This document shows positions 56,061 to 64,000 of a stretch of 64,000 nucleotides of DNA, piece by piece. The stretch comes from Omphalotus guepiniiformis (Eukaryota > Basidiomycota > Agaricomycetes > Agaricales > Omphalotaceae). The notes under the pieces were generated by a model. The model made no database searches, was not told the origin of the DNA, and was given only the letters and a program-made list of their open reading frames with translations. Made by a program: the position numbers and the translations under genes. Positions within the stretch are counted from its first letter, which is position 1; every line of letters begins with the position of its first letter. The DNA lies in assembly GCA_028554645.1 (NCBI GenBank), contig JAQOOI010000073.1:744001-808000 (forward strand), given 5' to 3'.

Positions 56061-56925
56061 ATGTCTTTGTCAGTCCCCATAGAAGATCTATGTCGCCTCC
56101 AAGTATCAGCTCGAATTTCACCTAAAGGACACCCAGTGATTTATCTCTCTTTGAAGCCTGATGCTCACTCTCAAGAGAGGTTGGCCTCTTCACCCGCTTC
56201 GCCTACTGGGATACACGTCAATATCCAAAGGGCGGTGGCAGAAGATGGGTCGGAATTCGCGTTGCACTTGACGACTTCGTTCCCCGAGTTGGAGCATATA
56301 TCGACAGCGTCGTCCAAGATGGATGTAACGTCTGAATTGGAGTGTGAAAGCAGAAAAGAGGCCTATTTCATGGGTTCTGTTCCACCAGGTGAGTTGACTG
56401 TTTCGATGTGTCTCGTTCTACTGATAAATATGTCAAGCACAGTGACTCTACCACCTGAACAGACAACGGTGACCCTTCCTGCGCATATATCTGGTTCTCC
56501 ATCCTCGTCGGATCCTTGGCTTCAAGCGACTTCGCAAAATAATCAGAGTTTGGTCGATGGTGGAAGCAATACGTCTAATGAATCCTCTGGCAGCCCATCT
56601 GGAATTCCCCTGCTTTCCGAACACGGTTATACACCTGAATCTGCGGTAGATTTAACAAGCCTTGCAGGTGACTACGACTCTTGTATGTGTTTTACTCGCT
56701 TTCTGTGCAAATACTTTGTCACTGAACACTATGGTATGTCTTATAGACGACGCAGAAGTTCGAGAACAAGAGCGGAATGCTTCATCTGACATGAACATGT
56801 TCCCCGATGTAACACAGTTCTTGCCGCCTTGTCCGCCTCTATCAGCGCCTATTCCCGGTATCAACGATTTCACCGGAGTAGGCATACGATTGGTACTACA
56901 GATTATATTAATTAATTTTAATTAA
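56061..56925 (+). CDS. Hypothetical protein with altered C-terminus
   Basis: Not recognised. Three exons with canonical introns (56061-56388, 56443-56682, 56747-56925) give 248 residues. The N-terminus (MSLSVPIEDLCRLQVSARIS) is compact; the middle is Ser/Thr/Pro-rich and probably disordered; the last exon is acidic then Pro-rich (FLPPCPPLSAPIPG). The final residues (after GIRLVLQI) come from an AT-rich insertion flanked by a 19-base direct repeat. Read across the second repeat copy instead, the frame would end IQEEK then a stop. The stop codon used here is therefore probably new. Confidence 0.6.
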
Positions 56926-57002
56926 TAATATTTATATAGTGCCTTGTCTTCTTGCGGTCTTCTGGTCCGATATCGAGTAATAGTACGATTGGTACTACAG
57001 AT
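56885..57002. repeat. 19-bp direct repeat flanking an 80-bp AT-rich insert
   Basis: The sequence TACGATTGGTACTACAGAT occurs at 56885-56903 and again at 56984-57002. Between them is a palindrome (ATTAATTAA, TT, TTAATTAAT) and about 45 bases of mixed sequence. The insert lies in the last codons of the preceding gene. Confidence 0.8.
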
Positions 57003-57875
57003 ACAAGAAGAGAAGTAAGGTACGGGTAAGGTACAACAGGATGTGTCAGAAGACGTCGGGAGCGACGAAGACGGGGAGGTAAAACGAAGGAACAAAAGTG
57101 CCAAGGAGCGGCGCAGCGGCCGGAAGTGTCCGGCATAGGGAGGGGGATTTTTCATGCCTTTTTGTTGACCTTTGTTCCTATATATCAGCCCAACGAATTG
57201 TGACTGTGACACCGCAATGTTCTCCTTATTGTCTTCCCTTCTTTTGAGGAATGAGAGCGCGAGGAGAACCCAGCGGCCCGTCCTGTCATTGCAAGCCTTC
57301 AAGACCCAATGTCGAGTGTCTTCTGTACTTATCAACTTTTGTATTGCAACAGCTCAAATTTCCGTCTAAATGAATTGCAAATCAGAATCAGTATGTGCAG
57401 TCACTTCCGTCAAGACTCCTTGCAACAATGCAAAAATGAGCTCTATATTCCATTTTGTCTGACAATTTCTTGTCTAGTTCAAGTCTTGTCACTCGTCTCA
57501 ACATCTTTCTTTGTCAACCTCCCCGTCTATGTATTGCAACAGTGCGTAAATGAGCTCTATCTTCCATTTTGTCTGATTATATCTTGACTAATTCAGGTCT
57601 TGTAGCTTGTTCCAACATCTTTTTTGGTTGACTTCCCTCGAACATCCCACAAGGTCCCCGCACATTGTTCAATATTCTACAATGAAGTTGTTCTGTGTGA
57701 TCCGCGGACCACAACACTGTTCTCATTCAGCGTTAGCTGTGGTGATTCAACCACTTCCAGTGGTTGAGGTTGTGGAGGATTCTGAGCTAAGGAAGATTGG
57801 TACGCTCATTGACTGATCCACTTTCAGTTGATATAACTTTCTCTCAGCTAGGAAACCAACTTGCTCCTCGCGAGA
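56926..57875. other. Left flank of the transposon-like module
   Basis: Contains the 19-bp repeat copy, a Lys/Arg-codon-poor stretch to about 57350, and two tandem repeats. A short ATG-led frame at 57682-57816 could be a 5' exon of the next gene but does not splice cleanly into it. Confidence 0.45.
57418..57650. repeat. Imperfect tandem repeat of about 115 bp, two units
   Basis: Both units begin TTGCAACA and contain AAATGAGCTCTAT, then CCATTTTGTCTGA, then CAACATCTTT and GTTGACTTCCC or GTCAACCTCCCC. Such subterminal direct repeats are common near the ends of DDE transposons. Confidence 0.75.
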
Positions 57876-60800
57876 ATGGATGTTTCTGCTTTGCTCAACC
57901 CAAGCAACCCCCCCGATAGTTCTACATTTGTACCCGATGCTTCACGTCCATTTGCTGTTCATTACGATGTTCCTCTGAATAAAGACACTGTTCTTGCCAG
58001 TCTTTCGCGGTACACTGCTGGATCCCTTGTTCCTTATCTAAGCACCAGTAGCAATCGAAAGCGACCCGAGGGACACCTATTCGAGATCGATCCTGCTGAG
58101 TGGCGAAATCCTGTGTTGGATGTAGCATATTCGTTAGGTGAACCTAAGGGCCAGAGGTCGGGAGTATATGTCAGTAGCTTAATGAATGAAGTGGGGGTAA
58201 AGGTGCCGTGCAAGAAGACAACATTGACTTGTATGTGAACCATTTTACTGCACCATGTATCATCTTTTCATGTGAATGATATTAGGTCAGGGTTGCAAAG
58301 TTTGTCCCTTCGTGAACATGGAATATGCTCAACGGCCTCACACACAAGCCGACCATGATTCTTTTCAGCTGTATTCCCAACAAGAGCGTAGCATTACCTC
58401 ATCCCCTCCTCTTTGTGATGTCTTAGAAGCAACACTGAGCTTATGGGCAAGCTTTCGAGACCAAGGGTGTTTTGGGCCTTTGGTGGAACCCACCTATTTC
58501 ACACCTTCAGAAACCAGGCGCCGTAAAGAAGTCCTTGCCACCCCACAAAAGGCCAAACGTGGTCATACTGTAAAACCCACTTGTCAAGGTCGCCTTCAGC
58601 TTCTCAAGTGCAACCAAGAGCTAAGAATTCAGTAGGTCATTGGTTAGCCGGCTGTCACTTCTCATGTAACAAGTTGCTGTACAGATGTGAACACTACCAT
58701 AACACAACATCAAGAACTCATACCAGTCGTATTATTTCTGCGAGCAAGTACGATGTGGAGTACTTTGAGGCCCTCTTCTACAACAACCACCCAGCCATTG
58801 AGCGCTTTGAAAACACAATGAAGGAGGCAGGCTGTGGCCCTCTAATGCCTTGTTGCACGGTGAAGAACTGCAGCTCAGTGTCAATAAAGTGTGGTATGTG
58901 TCTAATTGCAATCTGAGCCGTCAACAAAATACTTACCCAAATGTGAACAGATAATCACCATCGGTGCTCAGATGGGACACTGTATATGACGGAGCTCATA
59001 CGTCTAGAGTGTGCTTGCAAGTTCGAGATCTACCAGCCACTTGAGGAATATCGTACCCAGTGCCCACGAGTGTTGGTCATTTGCCGAGGTGCTCACACAC
59101 ATCCCATCCCGATCCTGAGCAAGACTCCCACCACCATCCGCTCAGAGATTGTGTCATTTCTTCAAACTATGAACGAGCTTCCCAATCTCACCTCTCGGCG
59201 CCTCATTCGGAGTGATTCTGCTAGGCTGTTTTTGCGAGATAAACTGCCACACATAGTAAACCCGACCTTCATCGACTTGCACTGTTCGTTGAACAACCGC
59301 GATCACCTACAAGCGATCATAGATATTGCACAAACCAAGCAATACCCTCACGGTACTGGATGGCAGGGTAGGTAAACGGCTCTTTCCCTAAAGTGGCCCC
59401 TGGTTAATGTTTGCCACTCAAAAGGATTGCAGCACCTCAAAGCTATAGAAGATTCACGTCTCCCACCACATCAGAGATATATTCGCTGGGTTGAAGAAAT
59501 CCAACTCGATGATGACAACGACTCTAAGTCAGAACCCTTTCGGTTGGTCATATGTATGAAGCAAGAAAACTCTACCCGCCTGGTTCGCGATGCTCGCCAT
59601 GTTCAAAGTGATATCAGCTTCAAGCGAGTTGTGGGTTGGTTGGAATTTGAGCTGGGGGGTTTTGATCGATGCAGTAGTACAAGTGAGTGTTGTCTTTCTC
59701 ACACCTAACCACATATTTTCGCTGACTGCTGCTCCAAGGTGTGTGCTATGTACGCGCCTATCTGAACCGGCAAACAGCAGAGGCACACCGGATACTTCTG
59801 CAGAGGGTTCACGCCATTGTCCTGGAAGATACTGGCCAACCACTTCGCTTCCGGCACTTGCATGCACTGAATAAAGACGATATCAACTTTGATGGGATAT
59901 GTTCGTGGACTGTTGATCAACATCTGGGTCAAGCCAAAGGTGAACCACAACAGCTTGCCACTGCTAGACTACTGCTGATTCACAAATTTTAGGTATTGGT
60001 GAATACTTGCAAAGCATATCTCCTCCATTGAAGCGCGATCTCTACGAATGTGACCGCCTTTTAACGGAATTAGACCCCTATGAACACCTTCGCCGTATCC
60101 TGCGCCTATGTTTGGCTCACTTCTACCGCAACATACAGGAGACACATTGCAATGCGGAGATACAAAATGCTATGCGAAGTCTAGCCTGCTTTCAACATTT
60201 CGATTGGGATCGTGCTTTGAAGATCATTGTCGAGCAGGGAAACAAGAAGGCAAAAGGTGAGATTATGTGCTGCTACTACACCTTTGCCCTACTAATTGAC
60301 TCGAAGATTGGCTTGAAGATAAACAGCGCTGCAGGTTTGCTTTTCCAGGCCTCTGTTGGGAGAAGAGCCTGATCCCTGCCCGGGTCTGGCAAGCTGTTGA
60401 TGGCACAAGCAACATTATTGAGTCGTTGCATCAAGACTCGTTAATAGAGGGGGGTCATTGTTCTCTAGTAGGAGGAATACTAAAGGCTGCAGTGTACGAT
60501 CATGTTCAGCTACAAACATATCAGGTAATGTGTTCTATTACTGCTGCTCGCGAGTGCTGAGACTGTGGCTCACGTTAACTTCTGCAATATCATAGACCAC
60601 ACAGAGTACTGGAATCCTCAGAAGATATCGAGCAAGAACTACCTCCTACCGCCAACGTGAAAGCCTACGCCGAGCTGGTAATGTTTTGGCTTTTGCCCTT
60701 GCCACCAGCATTCTTATAGTCACGCTTGCAGCGGATACTCGAAGCAAGCATCTAGGGGCACAAGATGACCTGATCCGGAAGCAAAATGAAATGCTACTCA

Positions 60801-61039
60801 AGGCACACAATGAACTACAAACAGCAAAGCGAAAGTTGTTGTATTCAAGAGAGCGATTGGCAATGGGTCGGGTTCAGGCAGTTGATGCGGTACAAAAGGC
60901 GACTCAGGTGCGAGACAGAGCTAAGGGCCGGTATACAAAAGCTTTACAGGCAAGCGAGAAGATGGTAGATGCACAGCTGGGGAGTGGGCGTGTTGAAATT
61001 GAGTTTTATGATACCGACTCAGAGGGTACTGCAGTATAG
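57876..61039 (+). CDS. MULE-like DDE transposase-related protein
   Basis: Probable transposase of an Agaricomycete mobile family, or a decayed copy. Multi-exon; starts MDVSALLNPSNPP at 57876. Joined exons show two Cys/His patches: GCKVCPF...H...H and, later, LECACKFEIY...CPRVLVICRGAHTHP, which is like the WRKY/FLYWCH-type fingers that precede Mutator-like (MULE) DDE domains. Then come FKRVVGWLEFELGGFDR, YLNRQTAEAH, FRHLHALN, WTVDQHLGQAKG, LCLAHFYRNI (the CxxH typical after the second Asp of MULEs), FAFPGLCWEKSLIP, and TSNIIESLHQD (candidate catalytic Glu). A coiled coil (ERLAMGRVQAVDAVQKATQ) ends the protein. Most junctions are GT-AG, but near 59680-59740 no GT-AG choice keeps the YLNRQ frame, suggesting decay. 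Confidence 0.6.
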
Positions 61040-61149
61040 TGGAGTTGACCATCGCTGTACATTCTGAGGTTACATAGCTTGTATAAGACTAGCGCCTCTT
61101 TGATTGATACTCTTTATCCCTTTAACCAACTTGAAAATAAAAGCCTGCA

Positions 61150-63427
61150 TTAAAGAAGATTGCAAACCACTTCCGTACATGCAGAATCAACACTCACATC
61201 TGCAGCTTCGAGCTTTTCCCTCAACTTTCTCAATTCATTCTTACACACCTCAATTGTGAGGAGTTGTGAACTGTAGAAGTTAAACAGCACCACAAGAATT
61301 GTCTCGAAATAATCATTCTGAGCCGTAAAAGTCCCAAGAAACAACACAATTTTATTTTTTGTATAAACAATTGTAATTGTGCAAGAAATACTCATTTTTT
61401 GGGCTACGCAGTATTCAACTACAAACTACTCGTGCAGTGATGTGATTCACCAACTGGAATAAAGAAAACTGCGCTACAGGGAATACATGTGTGGAATTGT
61501 TGGCGCCAGTCCAACCACTTATTGAGAGAAAGCCCTCCCTCGAAGGCAGCAGGATACAAAACCTCCAGGTGATCACGCAATAATGAAGCTAGGACAAAGT
61601 CTGGGCCTACAAGTCTGGTTAGCTGTATGAACAGGTGGACGGAGCAAAGTCGACACCTACGTTCTCGTCCTTTACCTTTCGGATCGACTGTGTTGGGTGC
61701 TTTGTGTGTGTGCTCATTGGTAGAAGAAACCTTGGGGGTAGATTCTCTGCGAACCCCAAAGAAATCTTCCCAAGCCTTTGGCTCTGTGAGTCGGCGTCGC
61801 TTGCTTGAGGCCCCCTCACCATCGTCTGAATGCACCAAACAGAATCAATAATTAGATCAACGTGAAAAGAAGATCAATGCACTTACTACTAACAAGGGCG
61901 CGCTTGCGAGCCCGTTCCCGTGCAGTATTCAGAGGCTTTGAGCTATTGGTGCCTCCTTCTCCCTCGTCATCTGACAGAGTGAGATCAATAACACCTAGGT
62001 GTTGCCGAATGGGTGGTTGGCGTGAATACGGTGGGGGAGCTGCACGACCAACTCTAGGCCGAGAGAGCGTGGGGCTCTCTCTAGGCTGAGTTGAAGGTGG
62101 AGGAGCACCTCGAGGCTGAGTTGAAGGTGGAGGCGCACCTCGAGGCTGAGTCGAAGGTGGAAGAATAACACCTCGAGATTGAGTCGAAGGTAGAGGAGCA
62201 GCACGGCGAGGCTGAGTTGAAGGGGGAGGAGCAGAGCGGCGAGGCTGAGTTGAAGGGGGAGGAGTGGGTGAAGGAAGAACAAATGGTCTAGGGCGGGGGG
62301 GTGTGGCAGGTGAGGCACTGGAAAGCGAGGGAGATCGATGCCAGTAGCCATTCCTAGACACTGTTGAAGCGACGACTGGGGTGATTGTAGTTTTCTGATC
62401 CTCATCAGAGTACGAATACACTGCACACAAAGGTGTAGCCTTGCTCAACAGAAAATCTGGAACAACTACAAGCACTCCGTCAGCAGAGCAGCAGTCTAGA
62501 AAGTTGTATGATGCCTACCTAGGTAGCCACAGGCCTTTGAATTTTTAGCACCACATCGGAATGCAAACCGATCACGCAGCGAGACACGAGCGGCTGTATG
62601 GCTGATCTGAAAGTATTGGGCAGGTACTTGGCACCAGCAGTGTGGCTGTTTTGCGTGAGGATTCTTCTTGAAATAATTTTGAAGCTCGTTAGGCGCCACG
62701 GCATATGTTCCTCCCATGGGAAGAGTTAAAGCAGGACTAATGATAGTGTTAGAACAAGGCACGTTGAAGCTAGAAATCAACTCACTAATAGTATGTTGAT
62801 ACTGCTTGAAAGTCTGTTGACCAGTGCAGCATCTCTCCGTCTTTGAGTGAAATACCAAGTCGCCTTAAATAACATGTTGAGATCACATTGAGAACAAAAG
62901 GGGAGAAAGTTAACCCACTGATTGTACTCTTTTTGCTCAGCTTCCTTGCTCTGCAGCTGCATAAGCTGCTCTTGCATACGCTCTGCTAAGGTAGACCCAA
63001 GAGAGATGGCTGTAGAAGGGCCTGCAATGGCAACAGCAGGAGTGGTTGTAGAAGGGCTCGCATCGGCAGTGGTTGTAGAACAGCCCACAACAGCAGGGTC
63101 ATCAGCAGAAACAGGAGGGTCCATACAATTTGCTTTTAGTGCCTCATCAAGAATAGCAGCGATAGCAGCATGACGACCTGGTGAAGGACTGGATGACTGG
63201 CGAGACGGCGAGTGCACCACCGCCATAGACCCTACCCGAAGACGAGCAAGAGCGCGTGGAGAAGGTGAGCTAGGCGGCAGAGTGGTCAGTGAAGAACTGA
63301 TACTTCGCTCCTCAATAGATGGAAGTGTGGGTTGGTGCTGCACAGAAGGATTATGGAGAGGAGTGGTTGCCTGCGTCAAAGGAGGCTGGGAAGATGCACG
63401 GGAGGAAGCTGCACGAGTAAGAACCAT
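61150..63427 (-). CDS. Companion protein of the transposon-like module
   Basis: Unknown function; converges on the transposase-like gene, with stop codons about 110 bases apart. Starts at 63427 (MVLTRAASSRASS). The first exon is Ser/Pro/Thr-rich and ends near CSQ; further GT-AG exons give YFQAVSTYYYPALTLPMGG, then a Cys/His patch (PHCWCQVPAQYFQ...RCGAKNSKACGYL) resembling a small GRF-type zinc finger, a Pro-rich block of tandem PPPSTQPRR/G units, the segment GVIDLTLSDDEGE that has the form of a SUMO-interaction motif, and a last domain with PDFVLASLLRDHLEVL. A final coiled-coil exon (KNELRKLREKLEAADV) is likely joined by a GT-AG intron ending near 61360. Both SIM-like motifs and zinc fingers occur in accessory proteins of fungal DNA transposons. 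Confidence 0.5.
62075..62275 (-). repeat. Proline-rich minisatellite, about 33-bp units
   Basis: Six or seven copies of GGCTGAGTTGAAGG-type units encode repeated PPPSTQPRG or PLPSTQSRG on the minus strand. Copies differ by a few bases and one in-frame size change, so the array is expanding or contracting by whole units. Confidence 0.8.
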
Positions 63428-64000
63428 TGCTAAAAGCTGCAGTGAGATGAGGGATTGAGGACTTTAAGTTGAGCGAGCTTCAAGTCTTAAGACACCTCCA
63501 TGCAGCTCATACTGGCATGGAACCATTCAGCGGGAGGAAATAATAAAATGTAATTGGCGGCGAACTCATTTACAAAGCTATGATAGATAAAAAATTAGGA
63601 TAGAAGTCTGGTAGAAGTTATGGAGAAGGAAAGTAAGAAGGAAGGAGAACTCACTCGCTCTATATAATTGTTGTCCATTCTAAACTCCATGAGTGATGTG
63701 ACTGTTACAAGCTGTTAAACGACAACGATGGTAATAGTAGTAATAACAATGTATCGGCAAACTCACTCAACAAAACAACTCATAACTGAGATTGAATGGT
63801 AGAAAGAAGAGAGAGTAAAGGCACAAAGCCGAATGTCTTACACAAGAATAAATGTTTGAGCAAGCTGTGAAAGTGACACGAAAACCATCCTTTTTCTGGA
63901 GGGCAAAGCTAACTGCCCTCCAAGAAAAGGACTGTTTACAGTTGTTGAATAAAACATGTGATGTTCAAATGATGGGGGTTTCAATGACCGAAACTCCCGA
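63428..64000. other. Right end of the module within the window
   Basis: Promoter side of the companion gene and possibly the right subterminal region of the element. Two inverted repeats lie close to the end (63889-63930 and 63974-63997). No further gene seen. Confidence 0.45.
63889..63930. repeat. Hairpin with a 17-bp arm
   Basis: CCTTTTTCTGGAGGGCA at 63889-63905 is nearly the reverse complement of TGCCCTCCAAGAAAAGG at 63914-63930, with an 8-base loop. Confidence 0.7.

Follow-up and report, generated by a model that had tools for sequence, protein, structure and literature searches.

Two converging genes near the right-hand end of a 64,000-nucleotide stretch of the Omphalotus guepiniiformis genome (the window: contig JAQOOI010000073.1, here C76, 744001-808000) raise the questions of whether they form a mobile element, of which kind, and what the second of them might do. 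An earlier note on this DNA had described them as a two-gene module at 57003-64000, consisting of a Mutator-like element (MULE) transposase of the DDE type and a partner linked to the SUMO pathway. The present analysis, for which 42.5 Mb of the genome in 80 contigs was searched, makes it very probable that they belong to an autonomous-looking Mutator-like DNA transposon of a lineage found in mushroom-forming fungi. This assignment draws on near-identical nested copies, terminal inverted repeats (TIRs), target-site duplications (TSDs) of 9 and 10 bp, a convergent second gene, and a transposase model that reads through without interruption and contains D, D, CxxH and E. Coordinates above 64000 continue the numbering of the window past its end.

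A nested pair of elements in a host gene

DNA searches with 57003-60000, 60001-63000 and 61800-64000 each matched, at a displayed identity of 100%, a second, inverted copy just past the window, and a long inverted repeat spans 56975-71417. The assembly holds two 7,266-bp copies of the element, one inside the other, so that the unit as originally delimited (57003-64000) falls short of the true ends, 56975 and 64240, on both sides, and had not been recognised as nested. The parts of the pair are as follows.

56975-64240, plus strand: inner copy, 7,266 bp, its last 240 bases past the window
56876-56974 and 64251-71417, inverse to the inner copy: outer copy, 7,266 bp; the second part is C76:808251-815417, past the window
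56876-56974, minus strand: 99-bp piece of the outer copy, at its companion-side end
56867-56875, unstranded: left target duplication of the outer copy, 9 bp, ATTTCACCG, perfect
71418-71426 (C76:815418-815426), unstranded: right target duplication of the outer copy, ATTTCACCG, past the window
56965-56974, unstranded: left target duplication of the inner copy, 10 bp, GTCCGATATC, perfect
64241-64250, unstranded: right target duplication of the inner copy, GTCCGATATC, past the window
56975-57002, plus strand: transposase-side TIR of the inner copy, GAGTAATAGTACGATTGGTACTACAGAT

The inner copy, whose companion-side TIR ends at 64240, sits within the outer copy, 99 bp in from that copy's companion-side end; the outer copy was therefore inserted first and the inner copy later. 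They differ solely at 63694, where the inner copy has T and the outer has C, and since this base lies upstream of the companion start codon (63427), the two encoded proteins are identical in both copies. The element ends, GAGTAATAGTACGATTGGTACTACAGAT and GAGTAGGCATACGATTGGTACTACAGAT, start with GAG and are alike at 24 of 28 bases; such TIRs are short for a MULE, yet within the 14-500 bp quoted in the relevant passage of PMC6446971. When the outer flanks are joined with one ATTTCACCG, they give a continuous frame, PIPGINDFTASLTTDDIEALLS, running into C2H2 fingers, from which it follows that the outer insertion split a coding exon of a C2H2 zinc-finger gene. The two parts of this host gene lie at 56701-56875 and 71418-72000.

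Two inverted 7.2-kb arms with a single difference might also be expected from a fold-back artefact, in assembly or sequencing, of a single element. We consider this highly improbable: at the left junction the opposite end of the element contributes 99 bp, accompanied by the 10-bp duplication, the right arm terminates at the duplication of 9 bp, and a gene is restored when the outer flanks are joined, none of which is a product of fold-back. Even if fold-back had occurred, one copy with a TIR pair and a TSD would remain.

A genome scan with the last 19 TIR bases, allowing up to three mismatches, returned 11 sites: four exact, which are the four ends of the nested pair; one with a single mismatch, on contig C42; and six with three mismatches, which are at chance level, since a reversed control pattern likewise gave six. 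The scan gave no sign of many short derivatives bearing these TIRs in the genome.

The transposase and its classification

The plus-strand gene contains the Cys/His patches, the CxxH-FYRNI segment and the TSNIIESLHQD motif previously read from it.

57876-61039, plus strand: transposase gene, ten exons, 885 amino acids; exons placed by eye and by homology

Its product has an N-terminal Cys/His region, a DDE core (D505/D588/E722, with C635/H638) and a C-terminal coil. The CxxH is C635-L-A-H638, directly before FYRNI, and TSNIIESLHQD contains E722. To judge from its sequence, the Cys/His set at residues 290-354 recalls FLYWCH or WRKY-GCM1 fingers, a resemblance without profile backing. The homolog, Pfam and genome searches, and a 24-row alignment, were made with an earlier model of 903 amino acids in which one intron was left unspliced. 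Forty-six relatives were found at E<=0.001 among 7,851 candidates in a search of 5.8 billion proteins, the best being from Paramarasmius palmivorus (55% identity over 98%). Among the nearest are the proteins VNI00_004412 of P. palmivorus, AAF712_015556 of Marasmius tenuissimus and V5O48_014558 of Marasmius crinis-equi. The six host species that were looked up represent six orders of Agaricomycetes; the remaining genera we take to be Agaricales. D505, D588 and E722 are invariant in all 24 rows (the window protein and 23 of the 46 relatives), and C635 and H638 are kept in at least 90%. In an alignment of 39 of the 46, several of whose rows are partial, the second Asp never varies, the first Asp and the Glu are present in at least 90%, and the CxxH pair in less than 90%.

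Pfam is nearly silent on this lineage. The window protein (903-residue model) matched no family at E 10, its single exons none above the cut-off, and none of the 46 relatives has a precomputed Pfam domain; Transposase_mut appeared, at E 0.038, in one of 39 relatives. The MULE profile PF10551 recognises two other places in the genome, not the window element, although the definition of a MULE does not demand a match to PF10551 or Transposase_mut. These two places, which are MULEs visible to Pfam, are the following.

C60:317709-318029: PF10551 match over cut-off
C19:1124847-1125056: PF10551 match over cut-off

Compared as profiles with an alignment of the window lineage (A2), the two pieces gave no match, but they are single fragments and the test is a weak one. 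Sequence searches of the PDB with a close relative, P0001, and with A2 returned no transposase; A2 gave 16 matches, mostly coiled coils, the best at E 0.031.

The predicted structure of P0001 has an RNase H-like core with an all-helical insertion of the IS256/MULE type, and in comparison with known structures the transposase of ISCth4, an IS256-family element, takes ranks 1-3, with Hermes about 2 Z units lower; this ranking lists no P element and no MULE-named chain, an absence that excludes nothing. A helical insertion and a C/DxxH motif also occur in other DDE superfamilies, namely hAT, P and KDZ (Kyakuja/Dileera/Zisupton), to one of which the element might belong instead. We think this unlikely. 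ISCth4 stands above Hermes, and the TSDs of three insertions (9 and 10 bp for the nested pair, 10 bp for a related element on contig C74) lie within the range of 8-11 bp given for MULEs, which sometimes carry extra genes, in the relevant part of PMC6446971. The corresponding part of PMC12730594 gives 5-8 bp for hAT (usually 8), 8 bp for Zisupton and 2-3 bp for Plavaka, so that duplications of 9, 10 and 10 bp fit neither hAT nor Zisupton. KDZ and Plavaka elements are likewise fungal DNA transposons with partner genes, and differ in these TSDs (PMC12730594, same part). The KDZ profile is absent from the 25 listed of 27 Pfam families for 39 relatives. The kinship with Kyakuja, Dileera and Zisupton that had been suggested for this locus found no support, while its description as a MULE-type DDE element stands, with TIRs, 9- and 10-bp duplications and an RNase H-like core in the model of a relative; nor was the pair found to be single-copy without TIRs. 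As a separate observation, the only structure below 0.001 in a viral library searched with the transposase model is BFVD O92526 of Bracoviriform inaniti (E 2.9e-13 over 545 columns), possibly a polydnavirus-borne MULE.

Among characterised elements, MuDR of maize has convergent genes and long TIRs. It is a plant element with a transposase and a second gene (mudrA/mudrB), the latter said, in the portion of PMC6446971 that deals with it, to have a role in integration. The nearest in length, in its short and imperfect ends, in its duplications and in the number of its genes is Mutyl, from the ascomycete Yarrowia lipolytica, with 7,413 bp, imperfect 22-bp TIRs, 9-10-bp TSDs, a transposase and a second gene, as described in passages of PMC5014426 and PMC6446971. 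Its second gene is given the same sense as the transposase in the text of PMC6446971 and the antisense orientation in a table, so the convergent layouts cannot be equated. Hop, a Fusarium oxysporum MULE, resembles the window element in its 9-bp TSD and in transposase length (836 amino acids) and differs in its perfect 99-bp TIRs; the passage on Hop in PMC5014426 makes no mention of a second gene. ISCth4 differs in being a bacterial insertion sequence with a single gene, copy-out/paste-in transposition and 8-10% identity. The main text of PMC6446971, a paper with 1,631 MULEs, uses the stem Basidiomyc- a single time, for a subgroup of group 35, and no description of the window lineage was found in open-licence PubMed Central, where most papers were judged by title and the start of the abstract; it is possible that the lineage is as yet unnamed.

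The convergent second gene and related loci

The minus-strand gene, with the Cys/His patches, Pro-rich repeats and VIDLTLSDDE motif that had been noticed in it, is also present.

61419-63427, minus strand: companion gene, five exons, introns of 55, 49, 53 and 61 nt, 596 amino acids, converging on the transposase gene
61963-61992, minus strand: VIDLTLSDDE, resembling a SUMO-interaction motif, in companion exon 4

A first model of 606 amino acids had a 23-nt intron, too short to be likely; it was replaced by a model with a 53-nt intron from the same donor, ten residues shorter. The Cys/His patches read HCWCQVP...FRCGAKNSKACGY and RRCRLC...HTCIPC...HHC, and there are also a Pro-rich repeat and a KRRR patch. 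A strict SUMO-interaction pattern was met in none of 20,000 shuffles of the 606-residue model, and a loose pattern in 3.4%. Searches for homologs gave nothing for the full 606 residues among the 7,990 candidates listed, which were probably crowded by low-complexity words and which alone cover the last third of the protein, and nothing for residues 151-310 among 84 candidates. No Pfam family was above the cut-off (TF_AP-2 at E 0.11), a PDB sequence search with exon 3 gave no transposase, and no relative was found in the genome outside the two C76 copies. A single-sequence fold of the last exon (pLDDT 54.7) was not used. A role in the SUMO pathway is conjectural: it is read from a single short motif, and the searches above gave the protein no homolog.

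The genome search with the transposase, which sets a lower bound, found at least three loci beyond C76, on C42, C74 and C19, with the following features.

C74:413338-420329: element of 6,992 bp, bounded by TIRs, GAGGGTAGAGTCGATTGGTACTATTCGATC and GAGTACATAGTCGATTGGTACTATTCGATC, and flanked by a perfect duplication of 10 bp, GTTGACAACG
C74, about 417898-419243, minus strand: second gene, in the right half of the C74 element
C19:1408366-1409014, plus strand: second gene, a relative of that of C74, 38 and 47% identical in two pieces

The scan that delimited the C74 element matched once in the actual sequence and never in 10 shuffled versions; the transposase matches there include stops, some perhaps in introns. 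On C19 the second gene faces the transposase gene, which is on the minus strand, and no TIRs were found in the 8 kb examined. The C74 and C19 second genes share CxxC...H...C patches and AWLxWN(S/T)R(I/A)G(V/I)PHD(V/A)W; shorter relatives (35-37%) at C57:287592-287729 and C69:29075-29212 were not placed in any element. The C42 locus has 69% DNA identity to the window over the transposase and a transposase-side end at 56510, while no second end, TSD or companion was found in the 30 kb examined. The two transposases give dN 0.14 and dS 2.3, a ratio of 0.06 over 785 codons, with dS near saturation and dN lowered by the dropping of stretches below 45% local identity.

A convergent second gene is thus present at three of four transposase loci. 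The expectation that the same pair always travels together does not hold in this genome, since the second gene of C74 and C19 differs from that of the window and none was found at C42. In 12 comparisons of the window companion with that of C74 and C19, each against 1,000 shuffles, the fractions ranged from 0.051 to 0.997 and none was convincing; either companion exchange or divergence beyond recognition would fit.

These loci also bear on whether the minus-strand gene belongs to the element at all. It could be a fragment of host DNA carried along, of the kind that MULEs often take up (PMC6446971, in the part concerned), or no gene, as the failure to find a homolog, among the proteins searched or elsewhere in the genome, would allow. 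This deserves serious consideration, although on balance we doubt it: its exons stay open across 1.8 kb, the splice sites are of the usual type and the introns measure 49-61 nt; by codon scores derived from the transposase, the modelled frame comes out best in four of five exons, all except the 78-nt exon 2 (606-residue model); and C74 and C19 likewise carry a gene opposite the transposase.

Noncoding repeats, proposed mechanism and significance

The left direct repeats and right hairpin reported for the element were both confirmed.

57420-57513 and 57534-57626, unstranded: two direct repeats, 83% alike, about 94 bp each, upstream of the transposase start codon
63882-63937, unstranded: palindrome or hairpin, upstream of the companion start codon, RNA z -5.07

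Rfam gave no match in 56800-64000 at gathering thresholds, and no known RNA resembling the hairpin was found there. Palindromes of the type GGAGGGCA...TGCCCTCC, with T-rich and A-rich outer arms, occur at 16 places in the genome including the two C76 copies; the scan gave 24 rows against one for the reversed pattern, and a stricter form 7 against none. Sites include the window (63882-63937), C74:417467-417529, L016 (C63:1896244), L017 (C14:345044), L073, L074-L077 and L080. DNA-fold z values are -5.1 for the window, -12.0 for C74, -3.0 for C63 and -3.2 for L075; L073 gave +0.7 on an excerpt that missed the second arm. The C63 and C14 palindromes lie near genes that are probably Plavaka-like and hAT-like. 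The recurring sequence could thus represent either a short palindromic element in its own right or a signal common to unrelated transposons.

By analogy with the MULE family, transposition is proposed to involve, first, binding of the N-terminal Cys/His region of the transposase to the repeat core CGATTGGTACTA in the element ends and pairing through its C-terminal coil; the DDE site would then cut, and the ends would be joined to a target opened 9-10 bp apart. The companion could perhaps be a nuclear accessory protein aiding integration or expression, as mudrB and vanC might suggest, with Cys/His patches for nucleic acid and conceivably VIDLTLSDDE for SUMOylated host proteins. More speculatively, and we would put it forward only as a tentative idea that may well prove wrong, this lineage might keep its convergent second gene as an exchangeable module, in which the same transposase is faced by Cys/His proteins that are unrelated to each other, one of them bearing a SUMO-interacting motif, and that would help the element to counter host chromatin control or to work by way of it.

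Mechanistically the element is of a familiar type, which the nested insertion and its duplications document well. The novelty lies in a transposase lineage missed by Pfam and in its second gene: one branch carries an orphan, another a different gene. In Marasmius oreades the search for MULEs relied on PF10551, according to the relevant part of PMC8290104, and this profile is blind to the window lineage, whose relatives come from at least six orders of Agaricomycetes. As its two copies are distinguished by a single base, which lies in neither reading frame, the element is a fair candidate for an active one, and as such could serve to test directly what function MULE second genes have.
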